Below, one piece after another: positions 27,767 through 34,562 of a DNA stretch of 37,563 nucleotides. The stretch covers positions 1 to 37,563 of the forward strand of contig JAKEGG010000048.1 of assembly GCA_022615965.1 (NCBI GenBank), read 5' to 3'. Within the stretch, counting starts at the first letter, position 1. The number at the start of each line of letters is the position of its first letter. The DNA is from Fusobacteriota bacterium (lineage in GTDB: Bacteria > Bacillota > TC1). The notes beneath the pieces were generated by a model, which saw only the letters and a program-made list of their open reading frames with translations, did no database searches and had not been told where the DNA came from. The translations under genes and the position numbers were made by a program.

Positions 27767-28146
27767 TGATTGACATCAATCTTCTTAAAGAAGCCTCAAA
27801 AAAAGTGCTGAATAATTCCTATAGTCCTTATTCAGGAATAAAGGTTGCCGCAGCAGTTTTAACTAAAAATGGAAATGTTTATACAGGTGTCAACGTGGAA
27901 AATAGCAGCTACGCCTTAACCTCCTGTGCAGAAAAAAATGCAATCATAAACAGCATTATCCATGGAGAAAAAGATTTTTTAGCTATGGCAGTATATACAG
28001 ATAGTCATTTGGTTAAAAGTCCTTGTGGTTCCTGCAGGCAATTTATTTTTGAATTCTCTAAGGACCTGCAGATATATTTCTATGGTCCAGATTACTATAA
28101 TGAATTTAATATCAAAGAACTTTTTCCTGAGGGGTTTAGCTTATGA
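27766..28146 (+). CDS. cdd: Cytidine deaminase
   Basis: 126 residues, tetrameric zinc-dependent type. Zinc ligands are C54 (in 'SCAEKNAI', with catalytic E56), and C87 and C90 in 'PCGSCRQ'. 'YSPYSGIKVAAAVLTKNG' and 'GVNVENSSYALT' bind substrate. It deaminates cytidine and deoxycytidine in pyrimidine salvage. The residue after the catalytic Glu is Lys rather than the Arg common in Gram-positive tetrameric enzymes, a conservative change. dgkA, which often lies between ybeY and cdd, is missing. It overlaps era by 4 bases. Confidence 0.95.
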   Translation: MIDINLLKEASKKVLNNSYSPYSGIKVAAAVLTKNGNVYTGVNVENSSYALTSCAEKNAIINSIIHGEKDFLAMAVYTDSHLVKSPCGSCRQFIFEFSKDLQIYFYGPDYYNEFNIKELFPEGFSL

Positions 28147-29042
28147 ATAAACAATTTAAATCAGGCTTCATAGCAATCATAGGCAGACCAAATGTAGGCA
28201 AGTCAACCTTGATCAATAATCTGGTTGGCAGAAAAATTGCCATCATGTCTGATAAACCTCAAACTACCAGAAATGAAGTTATAGGTATTCTAACAAAAAA
28301 AGATGAATACCAGCTAATATTTGTTGATACTCCAGGAATTCATAAGCCTAAAAATAATTTAGGTGAATTTATGATGAGTACAGTTAAAAAAAGCCTTAGA
28401 AATGCTGATTTGATAATATATATGGTTGATAGCAGCAAAAGCTTTGGCAGAGGTGAAGAGTATGTTATCGAAATATTAAAAGGACTTAAGACGCCGGTAA
28501 TACTAGCTATCAATAAAATTGATTTAGCTCCAAAAGAAGAGGTTTTACCGATTATCAAGCTTTACGAAGAACAAATCGATGTAGCAAACATAATTCCCAT
28601 ATCTGCTTTAAAAGCAGATAATATCGAAGAATTAAAGAAGAAAATACTGGATAATATTAAACCAGGACCACAGTATTATCCAGAGGAAGCAACCTCCTCT
28701 GTTGAAGAAAAAGATTTGGTAAGTGAAATCATTAGGGAAAAGATCCTCTTTTTAACCAAGGAGGAAGTACCTCATTCAGTAGCAGTTTCTGTAGAATTGA
28801 TTGAAGAGGAAGGTAATATGGTTAAGGTTTATGCTTCGATTTTCGTTGAGAGAAAATCTCAAAAAGGAATTTTAATTGGTAAACAAGGTAGTATGCTGAA
28901 AAAAATAGGGAAAATGTCTCGTGTTGAGCTGGAAAAGCTTTGGGGCATGAAGGTTTATCTTGATCTTTTGATCAAGGTTAAAGAAAACTGGCGAAAAAGG
29001 GATTCTGATTTAAAGAATTTTGGATTCAGGCAGGAAAAGTAA
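28143..29042 (+). CDS. era: GTPase Era
   Basis: 299 residues. G1 'GRPNVGKST' (14-22), G3 'DTPG' (62-65), G4 'NKID' (124-127), and a C-terminal KH domain with 'KGILIGKQGSMLKKIG', which binds the 3' end of 16S rRNA. Era acts in 30S assembly. It overlaps cdd by 4 bases and recO by 1. Complete and without oddities. Confidence 0.97.
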   Translation: MNKQFKSGFIAIIGRPNVGKSTLINNLVGRKIAIMSDKPQTTRNEVIGILTKKDEYQLIFVDTPGIHKPKNNLGEFMMSTVKKSLRNADLIIYMVDSSKSFGRGEEYVIEILKGLKTPVILAINKIDLAPKEEVLPIIKLYEEQIDVANIIPISALKADNIEELKKKILDNIKPGPQYYPEEATSSVEEKDLVSEIIREKILFLTKEEVPHSVAVSVELIEEEGNMVKVYASIFVERKSQKGILIGKQGSMLKKIGKMSRVELEKLWGMKVYLDLLIKVKENWRKRDSDLKNFGFRQEK

Positions 29043-29782
29043 TGGGTTCTGACAAGAGCATTTTAATTGAAGGAATTGTGATAAATACTGTTGATTATAG
29101 GGATTATGATAAAATCATAACTATATTTACCAAGGACAGAGGCAAGCTACAATTTTCTGCCAGAGGGGTCAGAAAAATAAACAGTAAAAACAGAAGCTCC
29201 ATAGATATTTTTATTTATGGTGAGTATCTTCTTAGTAAAGGCAAGGCATACTATATTTTAAATCAAGGTAAAACAATAGATGCTTTCAGATACCTTAGGA
29301 CAGATTTATTAAAAACTGCTGTGGCTATGACTATCAACATGTTTTTATTAAATATACTCTATGAAAATAATGCTCAAAAGGAAATATTTTCTCTTTATCT
29401 TTGGACCTTGAAACATTTAGAAAAATCCAGGGATCCTAGAATGCTGTTAAGATATTTTCTGGTTAAAGCCATTTTGTTTTTAGGACATAAACCACCATTA
29501 GCTGATTGTCATTATTGTGGGGAAAAACAGGGCAGTTTTTTTTATGATTTTAATAATGGGATATTAAGCTGTGGTAATTGCCGGAAAAGTGGCTTTGAAA
29601 TTGAAAGTCAACTCCTGGAGTTGTATAAGGCTTTAGAGTTAGATGATTTTAATTATCTGAGAAGTCAAAGCTATAATAAGAATAGTCTTGAAAAATTTGA
29701 TTATTTTTTAGGTAAATTGATTGAAGATTTAACAGATAAAAAGTTTACAGGCTTTGATTATCTGAAAAAATTGATTTTTTAA
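29042..29782 (+). CDS. recO: DNA repair protein RecO
   Basis: 246 residues. The N-terminal OB fold ('IEGIVINTVDYRDYDKIITIFTKDRGKLQFSARGVRK') is followed by a helical domain with a four-cysteine zinc site (C156, C159, C177, C180; 'CHYCG' and 'CGNC'). RecO loads RecA with RecR and anneals ssDNA. The N-terminal overlap with era (TAATG) is typical. The next gene starts 11 bases later. Confidence 0.95.
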   Translation: MGSDKSILIEGIVINTVDYRDYDKIITIFTKDRGKLQFSARGVRKINSKNRSSIDIFIYGEYLLSKGKAYYILNQGKTIDAFRYLRTDLLKTAVAMTINMFLLNILYENNAQKEIFSLYLWTLKHLEKSRDPRMLLRYFLVKAILFLGHKPPLADCHYCGEKQGSFFYDFNNGILSCGNCRKSGFEIESQLLELYKALELDDFNYLRSQSYNKNSLEKFDYFLGKLIEDLTDKKFTGFDYLKKLIF

Positions 29783-29793
29783 AATGGTTTGAT

Positions 29794-31635
29794 ATGATGA
29801 TGAAAATTAGACATAAAAATAATAATATTACAAATAAAGAATTAGACAGGCTGAAGTACAAATTAAATGGTGAGTTTTTCAACCTACTGGCTGATTTAAT
29901 ACTCTTATCCTATTCCAAGAAGGAGCTACAGTCCCTTTTAATAAAATCTACTGCTAATAAAGGTAGTTTTATTGAAAAGTCCAGTAGATTATTTCCTTTT
30001 GATTTAAGTGAAGAATTATTTTATGCCTATCAAGACATAAATAGGCTGAAATGGGAATATTTTGCCTTTTCTGTTGACAAGGCTTCTGGCTATGAAGCTA
30101 TTGCCTATACCCAAAATAATATTTTGGCAGTTGGCATCTCAGGTACAGATGGTAGCTATGAAGACGTGATGGACAATGATACCAGACTATTAGTGCCAAA
30201 AGGTGTCTTGATTCCTACTCAATTCAATGTGGTTAAAAGAAAACTTTTAGGCTTGATAAATAAATATAAGTTTAAGTATGGGCATTATCCAAAAGAAGTG
30301 GTGTTAGTTGGAAATTCCTTAGGTGGTGCTGTAGCCACTGTGGGTTATACTCAGCTTTATCCTTATTTAAGTATTTTAGGTATCAAAATAAAAGCTTTTA
30401 CTCATAACAGTGCTCCTTTAAGATATGAATATATTGAAGAAATCCTCAATAAAGCTGTCAAAATATATAAGCTGGAGTGGGATAGTAGTTTTGAGAAAGT
30501 CTTCTATAAAAATATCCTGAATATTATCAATGAAGATGATATGCTCAATAATATTATGATTAAAATTATTGATAGGATGGATAATTTTGGTCATGTAGGT
30601 AAATATGCCATTATTAAAGGGGAGAATAATCTACAGGAACAAAAAATACTCCATTATGCCTTAGAACATATCAATGTAAGACCAATAAGAAATATCAGCT
30701 TATCTGTTCATAAAAATATTGAATATTATTCTAAAAGGATGTTGGAAAGCTCAAAAGAAATCATTAAAAATGATATTGATTCATATATAGAAGATAAGAT
30801 AGTGATTGTTAAGGAATACAGCAGATTGTCTGATCGTATCAAAGGTTCCTTGGCTGGAGGTATGGTGCTGGAGCAACACTTTACAAAATCAACTGCCATT
30901 GGTGATGCCAGCTATTCTGTTATGGCAGTAGCTAAAGGGATAGTTGAGAATCCTGAAGATCCGATAAAAAGTATAGGTAAAAACCTGATTGAGTGGCATG
31001 CTCTTTATGCTAAAAATATTGGTAAAACTACTGAAGCAGCTATCAAAAATGCTTTGATCAAGGGCGATTTTTTTACTGGAGCAAAAATTGCTCATCAGGA
31101 GTTAAAAGAAAAATCTGCAGGTAATGCTTCTTTAAAAAGAACTGCTCCAATTGCTTTAGCCTATAGCAAGTTACAGGATGTAATCGATTTGTCTGGAATA
31201 CAATCAAATATGACCCATTTTGATGGCAAGGCTAAGGAAGCCTGTCAGTTATATTCCTGGCTCATCTATGAATTACTAACTGGAACAGATAAGGAAAAAA
31301 TCCTGGCAGATCTTTTTGCTAGCCATCTTTATTATGGTCAGTATAGAAAATTGGAATCTTTAAAAACTATAGATGATCCATGTTATGTGGTTGAAGCCTT
31401 GTTGGGGGCAATAACTATATTTTATCATTCTGATTCTTTTGAAGAGGCAATCAGACTTTTAAATATGCTTGATGATCCCTCGGAGCTGGCCTCTTTAACA
31501 GGAACACTATTAGGTGTTTGTTATGGTTATGGGAAAATTCCGAAAAAGATGCTTTTTAAAGTCGATTTTAAAGAAAAAATGAAAATGTATAAAATATCAA
31601 GTGAATTACTAAAGGTTAGGAGAAGTGAAAACTAA
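29794..31635 (+). CDS. Two-domain protein: lipase-3/DUF2974-like alpha/beta hydrolase fused to an ADP-ribosylglycohydrolase-like domain
   Basis: 613 residues, no named homologue recognised. N-terminal half (about 20-290): 'AVGISGTDGSYEDVMDND' resembles the oxyanion 'FRGT...DW..D' segment of class 3 lipases; 'LVGNSLGGAVA' is the nucleophile elbow (S175). D248/D249 in 'NIINEDDMLNN' and H267 in 'FGHVGKY' could complete the triad. C-terminal half (about 345-585): 'DRIKGSLAGG', 'IGDASYSVMAVAKGI', 'NIGKTTEAAI', 'GNASLKRTAPIALAY', 'THFDGKAKEACQLYSWLI', and 'SFEEAIRLLNMLDDPSELASLTGTLLGVCYG' follow the DraG/ARH motifs in order. The metal motifs are altered: TDD became GDA (370-372), and GGDxDT became LDDPSE (559-564). 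Three tandem ATGs at 29794-29802 lack a good ribosome binding site. Located between recO and glyQ, it abuts glyQ with no gap. No signal peptide is seen, so it is cytoplasmic. Function unknown. Confidence 0.85.
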   Translation: MMMKIRHKNNNITNKELDRLKYKLNGEFFNLLADLILLSYSKKELQSLLIKSTANKGSFIEKSSRLFPFDLSEELFYAYQDINRLKWEYFAFSVDKASGYEAIAYTQNNILAVGISGTDGSYEDVMDNDTRLLVPKGVLIPTQFNVVKRKLLGLINKYKFKYGHYPKEVVLVGNSLGGAVATVGYTQLYPYLSILGIKIKAFTHNSAPLRYEYIEEILNKAVKIYKLEWDSSFEKVFYKNILNIINEDDMLNNIMIKIIDRMDNFGHVGKYAIIKGENNLQEQKILHYALEHINVRPIRNISLSVHKNIEYYSKRMLESSKEIIKNDIDSYIEDKIVIVKEYSRLSDRIKGSLAGGMVLEQHFTKSTAIGDASYSVMAVAKGIVENPEDPIKSIGKNLIEWHALYAKNIGKTTEAAIKNALIKGDFFTGAKIAHQELKEKSAGNASLKRTAPIALAYSKLQDVIDLSGIQSNMTHFDGKAKEACQLYSWLIYELLTGTDKEKILADLFASHLYYGQYRKLESLKTIDDPCYVVEALLGAITIFYHSDSFEEAIRLLNMLDDPSELASLTGTLLGVCYGYGKIPKKMLFKVDFKEKMKMYKISSELLKVRRSEN

Positions 31636-32517
31636 ATGCTGACATTTCAAGATATGATTATGAAATTAAATGAATATTGGAGCAGTTCTGGTTGTATGAT
31701 CCAAATGCCTTATGATCTGGAAAAAGGTGCTGGGACGATGAACCCAAATACTTTTTTAAAAGCTATTGGTCCAGAACCATATGCTACTGCTTATGTTGAA
31801 CCATGTCGCAGACCAACTGATGGCAGGTATGGAGAAAATCCTAACAGATTACAACACTATTTCCAATATCAGGTGATCATCAAGCCAAGTCCTGATAATA
31901 TACAAGAGCTATATCTGAAAAGTTTAGAGTACATAGGTATAGATCCCTTGTTGCATGATATCAGGTTTGTAGAGGATAACTGGGAATCACCTACCTTAGG
32001 TGCCTGGGGTTTAGGTTGGGAAGTATGGCTTGATGGCATGGAAATATCTCAGTTTACCTATTTTCAACAATGCGGTGGCTTAAACTGTAGTCCAGTAACA
32101 GTGGAAATAACCTACGGTCTTGAGCGTATAGCTGCCTATATCCAGGAGCAGGATAGTGTTTATGATATTTTTTGGAATAATCAGGTTAAATATGGTGATA
32201 TCTATAAAAATAATGAGGTGCAATTTTCAACCTATAATTTTGAAGTTTCAAGTGAAGAAATTCTCCTTCAGCTATTTGATCTGTATGAAAAGGAGGCTGG
32301 AAATTGCCTTGAAGCAAAATTGGTTTTGCCAGCATATGATTATGTTTTAAAATGCTCTCATGCCTTTAATCTTTTAGATGCTCGTGGAGCCATAAGTGTA
32401 ACAGAGAGAACTAACTATATAGCCAGAATCAGAAACCTGGCCAAGGTATGTGCAGAAAGCTATTATGCCAGTAGAGAAGCTTTAGGCTTTCCACTTTTAA
32501 ATAAGGAGGAAATGTAA
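31636..32517 (+). CDS. glyQ: Glycyl-tRNA synthetase alpha subunit
   Basis: 293 residues, the bacterial alpha2beta2 type. '[35 protein letters not shown]' and '[30 protein letters not shown]' (class II motif 2) identify it, with motif 3 in '[15 protein letters not shown]'. The ATG is adjacent to the stop of the preceding two-domain gene, and AGGAG (31618-31622) is 13 bases away. There is no room for a T-box leader in front. The stop overlaps glyS by one base. Confidence 0.97.
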
Positions 32518-34562
32518 TGTCAGACTTTCTATTAGAAATTGGACTGGAAGAGGTGCCAGCAGGTAAAATTATTGGAGTTATTGATAATTTCAAGTCTAAT
32601 TTAGAAAATGAATTATTGGCTAAGGAAATTCCCTTTAAAAAAATAGATACTTTAGGTACCTCTAGAAGATTTACAGTTATTATCAGAGATATTGCTGAAA
32701 AGGGCAGGGAACTTTTGGTGGAAAACAAAGGCCCAAGTTTGCAAGGTGCCTTTAAATCTGGAGAACCAACCAAGGCTTTACAAGGTTTTTGTAAGGGTCA
32801 GGGTATTGAAGTTAACGATGTAGTTATTAAAGAATTAAAAGGCTCAGAATATGTTTTTTGTGTTAAAAAAATACCTGGTGCTGAGGTCAAAAAGATTTTA
32901 CCAGAAATTCTAACAGCTTCTTTAAATAATCTGTATTTCTCTAAGCCTATGAATTGGGGAACAAACAAGACAGCTTTTATCAGACCTATCAGATCAATTG
33001 TTGCTCTTTGGGATGAAGAGGTGATTGAATTTGAATATGCTGGTATTAAAGCAGACAGGTATACCACAGGGCACAGGTTTTTATCTTCAGCTCAGGTGGA
33101 GATCTCCAAGGTTACCAGTTATGAAGAGGAATTGGCCAAGGCCTTTGTAGTTGTAGACATCAATAAAAGAAGAATGATCATTGAAGAAGGTATAACTAGA
33201 TTAGCTGAAAGTATAAATGCTAAAGCATTATTAGAAGAAGATCTTTTAGATGAGGTTAATTTTCTAGTGGAATATCCAACAGCCTTTTTAGCTGATTTTG
33301 ATCAAATATATCTTAAATTACCAAAAGAAGTAATTATTACTACGATGGTCAATAATCAAAAATATTTCCCGGTAGTTGCTATAGATAACACACTTCTTAA
33401 CTACTTTATTGGAGTGAGATGTGGTAATGATCAGTATCTAGATAATGTTATCAAGGGCAATCAAAAGGTTCTTAAGGCAAGACTTGAGGATGCAGTGTTT
33501 TTCTATAACGAAGATTTGAAAAAGCCTTTGTTAGAGCTGAGGGACAAGCTTGATAAGGTTATTTATCAGGAAAAGCTAGGTTCTGTAGGTGATAAAATTG
33601 ATAGAATAAAGATACTAAGCAAGTATATTGCTGATAAACTTGAATATCAAGATGAAAACATAGAGCTGGCAGCTAGTATGGCTAAAATGGATCTGGCAAC
33701 ACACATGGTTTACGAGTTTCCAGAACTTCAAGGAATTATGGGCTATTACTACGCCCTGGAAGAAGGCTATCAAAGAGAAGTGGCTTTAAGTATTCTGGAA
33801 CACTATAAGCCTGTTGCTGCAGGGGATATGGTTCCAACAAGTGGTTTAGGAATTATTATTGCTTTAAGTGATAAAATTGATACTTTGACTTCAATAGTCA
33901 AAGCAGGTTTGATACCTAAAGGTAGTCAGGATCCATATGGATTAAGAAGAATCGCTTTAGGTATTATCAGAATAATAATCGAAAACCAAAAGCATATTTC
34001 TATTAAAGATTTACTGGTTAAAAGCCAAAGCAATCTACCAGATCTAATGGATCAGAAATTAGATTTTTATCTTGATTTTCTTATGGTTAGATTTAGGTCA
34101 TATATGGAAAAGGAAGGCTTAAGCTATGACTTGATAGATAGTATTCTGGCTCTGGAATTTGATGATCTATATACTTTGTATTTAAAAGCAATGGCTTTAA
34201 AGAAGTATTCAAGTGATAAAGGCTTTATAGATTTGATCAATTTGCTGACCAGGGTATCAAATATAGTCAAAGATGCTGAGTCTGAGGTTTATGACAAGAA
34301 TAAGCTGATGGAAAAGGCTGAAATAATATTAGAGGAAAATTTTAGTGCTGTTAAAGCTGAATTTGATGAATTTTATATTGATGAGGATTTTATAGGTTGT
34401 CTGAATTCTTTAGGCAAATTAAAAGAGTCCTTGGATGACTTCTTCAATGAGGTTATGGTAATGGTTGAGGATGAAGAAATCAAGAACAATAGGATTTCAT
34501 TATTAAATTCAATCAGGAAGATAGGAGAGAAATTATTTATAGCAAAGAAAATTGTAAATTAA
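32517..34562 (+). CDS. glyS: Glycyl-tRNA synthetase beta subunit
   Basis: 681 residues, the expected size. 'FLLEIGLEEVPAGKI' at the N-terminus, 'KPMNWGTNKTAFIRPIRSIVAL', 'TTMVNNQKYFPV', 'GLGIIIALSDKIDTL' with 'PKGSQDPYGLRR' (the HD-like region), and a C-terminal anticodon-binding helical domain. The beta subunit binds tRNA-Gly and is needed for full charging activity. TAATG overlap with glyQ indicates coupled translation; GGAGG at 32503-32509 serves as ribosome binding site. Confidence 0.97.
   Translation: MSDFLLEIGLEEVPAGKIIGVIDNFKSNLENELLAKEIPFKKIDTLGTSRRFTVIIRDIAEKGRELLVENKGPSLQGAFKSGEPTKALQGFCKGQGIEVNDVVIKELKGSEYVFCVKKIPGAEVKKILPEILTASLNNLYFSKPMNWGTNKTAFIRPIRSIVALWDEEVIEFEYAGIKADRYTTGHRFLSSAQVEISKVTSYEEELAKAFVVVDINKRRMIIEEGITRLAESINAKALLEEDLLDEVNFLVEYPTAFLADFDQIYLKLPKEVIITTMVNNQKYFPVVAIDNTLLNYFIGVRCGNDQYLDNVIKGNQKVLKARLEDAVFFYNEDLKKPLLELRDKLDKVIYQEKLGSVGDKIDRIKILSKYIADKLEYQDENIELAASMAKMDLATHMVYEFPELQGIMGYYYALEEGYQREVALSILEHYKPVAAGDMVPTSGLGIIIALSDKIDTLTSIVKAGLIPKGSQDPYGLRRIALGIIRIIIENQKHISIKDLLVKSQSNLPDLMDQKLDFYLDFLMVRFRSYMEKEGLSYDLIDSILALEFDDLYTLYLKAMALKKYSSDKGFIDLINLLTRVSNIVKDAESEVYDKNKLMEKAEIILEENFSAVKAEFDEFYIDEDFIGCLNSLGKLKESLDDFFNEVMVMVEDEEIKNNRISLLNSIRKIGEKLFIAKKIVN

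Follow-up and report, generated by a model that had tools for sequence, protein, structure and literature searches.

A class-3-lipase-like protein fused to a degenerate ADP-ribosylglycohydrolase domain between recO and glyQ in uncultured Bacillota

The C-terminal domain of plant EDS1 is a helical bundle and not an ADP-ribosylglycohydrolase (ARH) fold. It takes part in the binding of ADP-ribose derivatives or ADP-ribosylated nucleotides (PMC10805603). Replacement of any one of the four Asp residues of human ARH3 by Ala impairs PAR hydrolysis, and the D77A and D314A mutants still bind ADP-ribose, at 0.06 and 63 uM, which is tighter and weaker binding, respectively (PMC8141533). ARH3 depends crucially on its flap Glu, the effect of which is minor in RruDraG (PMC7050489). 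ARH2/ADPRHL1 is a catalytically inactive vertebrate ARH and suspected pseudoenzyme (PMC7050489; PMC10601310). Bacterial ARH domains which are devoid of the catalytic site yet under selection are little described. Both domain families of the fusion analyzed here are already known. However, no description of the lipase/ARH combination, of its fixed operon place or of the retained degenerate ARH was found in the open-access literature searched, which agrees with the preliminary description, where no known protein joining both families could be named.

The fusion gene and its locus

The window, i.e. the whole analyzed stretch of 37,563 nucleotides, comes from a draft genome (MAG) of 1.08 Mb in 63 contigs which is 80% complete. 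ORF analysis of the window found a single open frame of 613 amino acids on the + strand, from the ATG at 29794 to the stop at 31635, inside the recO-glyQ block as first described, while the strand opposite the frame has many stops (Table 1). A survey of homologues for the same architecture and neighbourhood found both in each of the four remaining genus members, where full-length orthologues of about 610 residues occupy the same locus in a single frame. So the fusion is one real protein, and an assembly or frameshift artefact was ruled out; the joining of two genes by chance or in assembly, to which the incomplete and fragmented state of the source genome might point, is left with a negligible probability. 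The orthologues are 41-42% identical to the window protein and 64-74% identical among themselves. The gene order era-recO-X-glyQ-glyS, with the fusion as X, is found in all five members of the genus.

In the sister-genus genome (G005), the gene is present at the same place and is broken into several frames. This was not accepted as proof of gene loss: in that region phoH, too, is interrupted by two frame changes, so assembly indel errors are as likely a cause as loss. That phoH (L034:13432-14253), situated near the broken fusion gene, lies in three frames, by indel errors or by real decay. In the neighbouring family, glyQ directly follows recO in two genomes (G006 and G008), and a short dihydrofolate-reductase-like frame lies between the two in a third (G009).

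As the place in the era-recO-X-glyQ-glyS block is fixed, the gene is a standing rather than a mobile one, in line with the preliminary description, and its product would be a standing component of that operon. Mobile or defence cargo was rejected as the main reading on the basis of the locus being fixed in six genomes, the negative PADLOC result and the viral contigs, where the profile of the N-terminal domain found no relative. PADLOC models gave no match for P0001 and a single match at E 0.06 for P0004, none convincing. For the part in tRNA charging or in phage defence suggested earlier, no evidence other than gene order was found.

The N-domain profile found no further match across 398 genomes of the phylum, six of which represent the fusion's own family, and a sample of about 390 other Bacillota genomes showed no such lipase/ARH fusion. 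Among the PF03747 matches listed for the phylum, nearly all open frames measure 270-480 aa. By reading, two much longer listed ARH frames and three of 448-477 aa possess no lipase-type N-domain. Within the genomes sampled, the fusion appears confined to one small lineage of uncultured Bacillota. Two other combinations were seen by reading. A 477-aa frame (L013:1144-2574, G053) contains a canonical ARH and then an apparent uracil-DNA-glycosylase-like domain (VGYNPG...), an ARH/DNA-repair fusion, and a 703-aa frame (L083:459-2567, G184) contains an ARH-like domain along with a C-terminal part resembling a carbohydrate-binding/lectin-like fold.

Table 1. Coordinates of the fusion gene, its neighbours and the features of the encoded protein. 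Positions refer to the window, and residues to the fusion protein.
Feature	Position	Strand	Remarks
era, upstream neighbour	28143..29042	+	same order in relatives
recO	29042..29782	+	ends 11 bp upstream of fusion gene
Lipase-like/pseudo-ADP-ribosylglycohydrolase fusion gene, 613 aa	29794..31635	+	ORF; 610-aa orthologues in 4 genomes
N-terminal region resembling class-3 lipases (alpha/beta hydrolase), residues about 1-300	29794..30693	+	Lipase_3 sub-threshold 5/5; fold model
Nucleophile elbow GNSLGG, residues 173-178, S175	30310..30327	+	invariant 5/5 (intact orthologues)
Catalytic Asp candidates D248/D249 in INEDDML	30535..30540	+	invariant 5/5
His candidate H267 in FGHVGKY	30592..30594	+	invariant 5/5
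His candidates H287 and H292 (HYALEH)	30652..30669	+	invariant 5/5
Predicted long helix linking both domains, residues about 303-345	30700..30828	+	AF2 helix 303-364, low confidence at start
ADP_ribosyl_GH (ARH/DraG-fold) domain, about residues 346-611	30829..31626	+	PF03747; all-helical model; Foldseek
Glu-flap loop (GDALGxxxEF...) missing, between residues 364 and 365	30883..30888	+	31-column gap in 5/5 fusions
TDDT metal motif, degenerated to GDAS, residues 370-373	30901..30912	+	D78-equivalent A/G
GNASLKR, residues 443-449, altered pocket motif (GNG.LMR in relatives)	31120..31140	+	G443 and R449 invariant 20/20
T474-H475, retained ARH pocket motif	31213..31218	+	invariant 20/20
HLYYGQY, residues 511-517	31324..31344	+	invariant 5/5 fusions; not in other ARHs aligned
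GDxDT metal motif, degenerated to DDPSE (window copy), residues 560-564	31471..31485	+	
glyQ	31636..32517	+	starts directly after fusion's stop codon
glyS	32517..34562	+	

Family and fold of the two halves

The N-terminal half had been called lipase-like on account of a GNSLGG elbow with S175 and matching Asp and His candidates. The elbow was located as described, and the Ser-Asp-His order, composed of S175, D248/D249 and H267/H287/H292, is invariant in all five fusions, with three His candidates for one role. By spacing, H287 or H292 is more likely to be the catalytic His than H267, the position of which is presumably structural in class-3 lipases. The sister-genus fragment shows GHSLGG at the elbow. 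Lipase_3 (PF01764) matched residues 147-252 with 16.6 bits, below its gathering cut-off of 22, and appeared below E 1 in each of the five fusion proteins. The structure of the N-domain was modelled from an alignment of five sequences (mean pLDDT 61). The best Foldseek matches of this low-confidence model in PDB were fungal class-3 lipases (prob 1.00, E 5e-3), no PDB fold match reaching E 1e-3, followed by weaker matches to EDS1-SAG101/PAD4 chains (E 0.03-0.5, prob 0.18-0.54). Search of PDB sequences with the N-domain gave nothing better than E 0.15. Thus the conserved elbow and the Asp/His candidates speak for the earlier assignment, but with a sub-threshold Lipase_3 match and weak fold matches this half is better termed class-3-lipase-like than a proven Lipase_3 member, as judged from sequence and model.

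The C-terminal half gave clear matches. PF03747 (ADP_ribosyl_GH) covered residues 370-584 with E=7.2e-27 and 95 bits (cut-off 26), and Thermus ARH, Tri1 and DraG chains were found among the PDB sequence matches of the fusion, down to E=1.8e-15. NIGKTTEAAI, GNASLKRTAP, THFDGKAKEAC and SFEEAIRLLN...GTLLG..YG, which the preliminary description had listed as landmarks in DraG order, were all found. In an AlphaFold2 model built from a 20-row alignment, the C-terminal half is all-helical, and most ten-residue blocks from 341 on showed pLDDT of 82-97, with lower values near 510-530. Foldseek matched this fold to DraG, Tri1 and ARH3, with E values around 1e-10 (down to 7.7e-11) and TM-scores, normalised to the targets, of 0.61-0.76. 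The cut-off of the Tri1 equivalog NF041672 was not reached (80.6 bits against 490). Both an ARH family match and an all-helical DraG fold were obtained where their absence had been considered, and on the basis of homology and predicted fold the C-terminal half is an ADP-ribosylglycohydrolase (ARH/DraG) domain, as had been claimed.

State of the ARH catalytic site

To compare the catalytic motifs, five intact fusions and 15 stand-alone homologues were aligned (20 sequences). At the Glu-flap position, 13 of the 15 stand-alone homologues have E and two have Q. The second Asp of TDDT (D78-equivalent) is A or G in all the fusions and D in every stand-alone ARH. The second Asp of DxDT (D316-equivalent) is replaced by S/Q/Q/Q/E across the five fusions, while it is D in 14/15 stand-alone proteins, and the Thr of this motif (T317-equivalent), present in 15/15 stand-alone proteins, is E in 5/5 fusions. 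The window copy alone still has the first Asp of DxDT (D314-equivalent; D561), which is gone in the other four. M is changed to K within the GNG.LMR motif of all five. D371, R449, T474 and H475 are retained in the fusions, and E564, which replaces the Thr, could in principle serve as a new metal ligand. The sister-genus fragments retain SDDT, GNGSLMR and GGDRDT, and have HLFYGNY at the HLYYGQY site. Because these fragments keep the motifs, the losses look derived and point to a loss of the metal site within the window's genus.

The preliminary description proposed that one domain may sense or remove an ADP-ribose-type modification. The part on removal is not supported, the metal ligands and the Glu flap being gone from all five intact copies, whereas sensing or binding is still possible. 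Since the metal ligands are lost and the Asp mutants of ARH3 are impaired, ADP-ribose hydrolysis by the ARH half is unlikely as judged from its residues; the binding shown by D77A and D314A makes binding possible for the fusion. If the domain behaves like ARH3, the loss of the D314-equivalent in four of the five copies would weaken ADP-ribose binding.

A bifunctional enzyme, in which the lipase half cleaves an ester and a still active ARH half takes off ADP-ribose or acts as hydrolase on an ADP-ribose-type metabolite, would fit the strong ARH homology, the retained D371, R449, T474 and H475, the D561 of the window copy and the intact TDDT- and DxDT-type motifs of the sister-genus copy. But the second Asp of both motifs, the Thr and the flap are missing in every intact copy, and single Asp mutants of ARH3 are already impaired in PAR hydrolysis (PMC8141533). 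Moreover, a TIR over cut-off or a SIR2, DarT or KptA writer was not found in the six genomes, and each genus genome carries a separate stand-alone ARH gene, those read in G000-G002 having canonical motifs. Such an eraser of ADP-ribose is made unlikely by the ligand loss, and its probability is put low.

The TIR search of the six genomes (G000-G005) was done with the TIR_2 model alone and gave no match over cut-off. The only TIR hint is a 150-aa frame (L086; G003 contig C9:4925-5203) scoring 21.7 of 28 bits. Searches of the six genomes for SIR2, DarT and KptA found none of them, and links to sirtuins and O-acetyl-ADP-ribose and to DarT or KptA were dropped. The window's own genome has its separate stand-alone ARH on contig C24 (L002:1453-2247), with TDDT and GGDSDT intact. 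Another degenerate candidate is a stand-alone ARH of G110 (L056:5-967), which has GGNANT for GGDADT and TEDT for TDDT.

Among the four closer orthologues, dN/dS (NG86) was 0.14-0.21 for the N-terminal half and 0.10-0.19 for the C-terminal half, compared to 0.03-0.06 for glyQ and 0.05-0.13 for recO; both halves are higher but clearly below 1. The window copy is more diverged, with 0.26-0.41 against the other orthologues. These ratios are approximate, as dS is about 0.9-2.5 and synonymous sites are near saturation. With values of only about 0.10-0.21 over both halves of the four closer orthologues, the ARH half is maintained by purifying selection after the loss of the metal site.

Proposed function and comparison with known systems

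The reading we favour, at a probability of roughly 55%, is a cytosolic class-3-lipase-like serine hydrolase joined to a non-hydrolysing ARH domain retained for binding or regulation. The N-terminal half would be an esterase or (phospho)lipase, for which the invariant Ser elbow and Asp/His candidates count. The C-terminal half would be a degenerate ARH which no longer cuts ADP-ribose linkages. Its retained pocket may accept an ADP-ribose- or nucleotide-type ligand, or else this half may bind a protein partner, and it may regulate the N-domain. The protein is probably cytosolic, as no obvious N-terminal signal sequence was seen by eye.

The ARH domain may instead act purely as a scaffold, on which the protein oligomerises or binds partners, with no small-molecule ligand. 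The lost metal site, the conserved surface-type motifs which this family has gained for itself, e.g. HLYYGQY, and the precedent of ARH2/ADPRHL1, a suspected pseudoenzyme (PMC7050489; PMC10601310), are in favour of this, but the invariant R449, T474 and H475 of the pocket need not be kept by a pure scaffold, and this alternative is considered possible, though clearly less probable than a binding module.

More doubtful is a receptor of the EDS1 kind, where an ADP-ribose-derived messenger held in the pseudo-ARH would switch on the lipase domain or a partner in a stress or phage alarm. By analogy, the principle of EDS1 would have arisen independently in bacteria, with an ADP-ribose-type messenger in a pseudo-ARH, which gave up hydrolysis for binding, switching a class-3 lipase encoded by a core gene of one Bacillota family, a proposal we regard as speculative. 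The layout resembles that of the plant EDS1 family, in which a lipase-like N-domain is followed by a helical C-domain that helps to bind ADP-ribosylated nucleotides (PMC10805603), and binding can outlast hydrolysis in ARH3 mutants (PMC8141533). The N-domain has Foldseek matches to EDS1-SAG101/PAD4 chains, but these are weak and expected from shared lipase ancestry. The C-domain of EDS1 does not have the ARH fold, TIR is limited to the one sub-threshold match of G003 in the six genomes, and a core fixed locus with negative PADLOC result is unlike the patchy defence genes.

If the pseudo-ARH does bind ADP-ribose compounds and control the lipase, the favoured reading would describe a simple switch within one protein, by which NAD-derived signals act on the hydrolysis of lipids or esters. 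Together with the five derived copies, the sister-genus copy, which retains its metal motifs, would form a natural before-and-after series for hydrolase-to-receptor evolution.

Class-3 lipases (Rhizomucor miehei lipase, fungal mono/diacylglycerol lipase) share with the N-terminal half the G-x-S-x-G elbow, the Asp/His order and the strand-helix order, and are its best fold matches. The fusion differs from them by GNSLGG, with N where H is usual, by an N-terminal helical extension of about 85 residues, by the lack of an evident secretion signal and by a score below the Pfam cut-off. With plant EDS1/PAD4/SAG101, the likeness is an analogy of layout only, a lipase-like N-domain with a helical C-domain. 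By Foldseek, the C-domain of the fusion has the ARH fold and no EDS1-type helical bundle, the genomes bearing the fusion have no TIR partner over cut-off, and any ligand of the fusion is putative. The nearest solved relatives of the C-terminal half are members of the DraG/ARH family (Tri1 6dre, Thermus 2cwc, DraG 2woc/3g9d, ARH3 6d36/6hgz), which have sequence, all-helical fold and the GN..L.R, TH and glycine landmarks, in the same order, in common with it. Unlike them, this half has lost the Glu flap and the metal ligands, carries K for M in GNG.LMR and is fused to a lipase-like domain. ARH2/ADPRHL1 likewise has an ARH domain maintained after the loss of catalytic residues (PMC7050489; PMC10601310), whereas the fusion is bacterial and has this domain joined to a lipase-like one.
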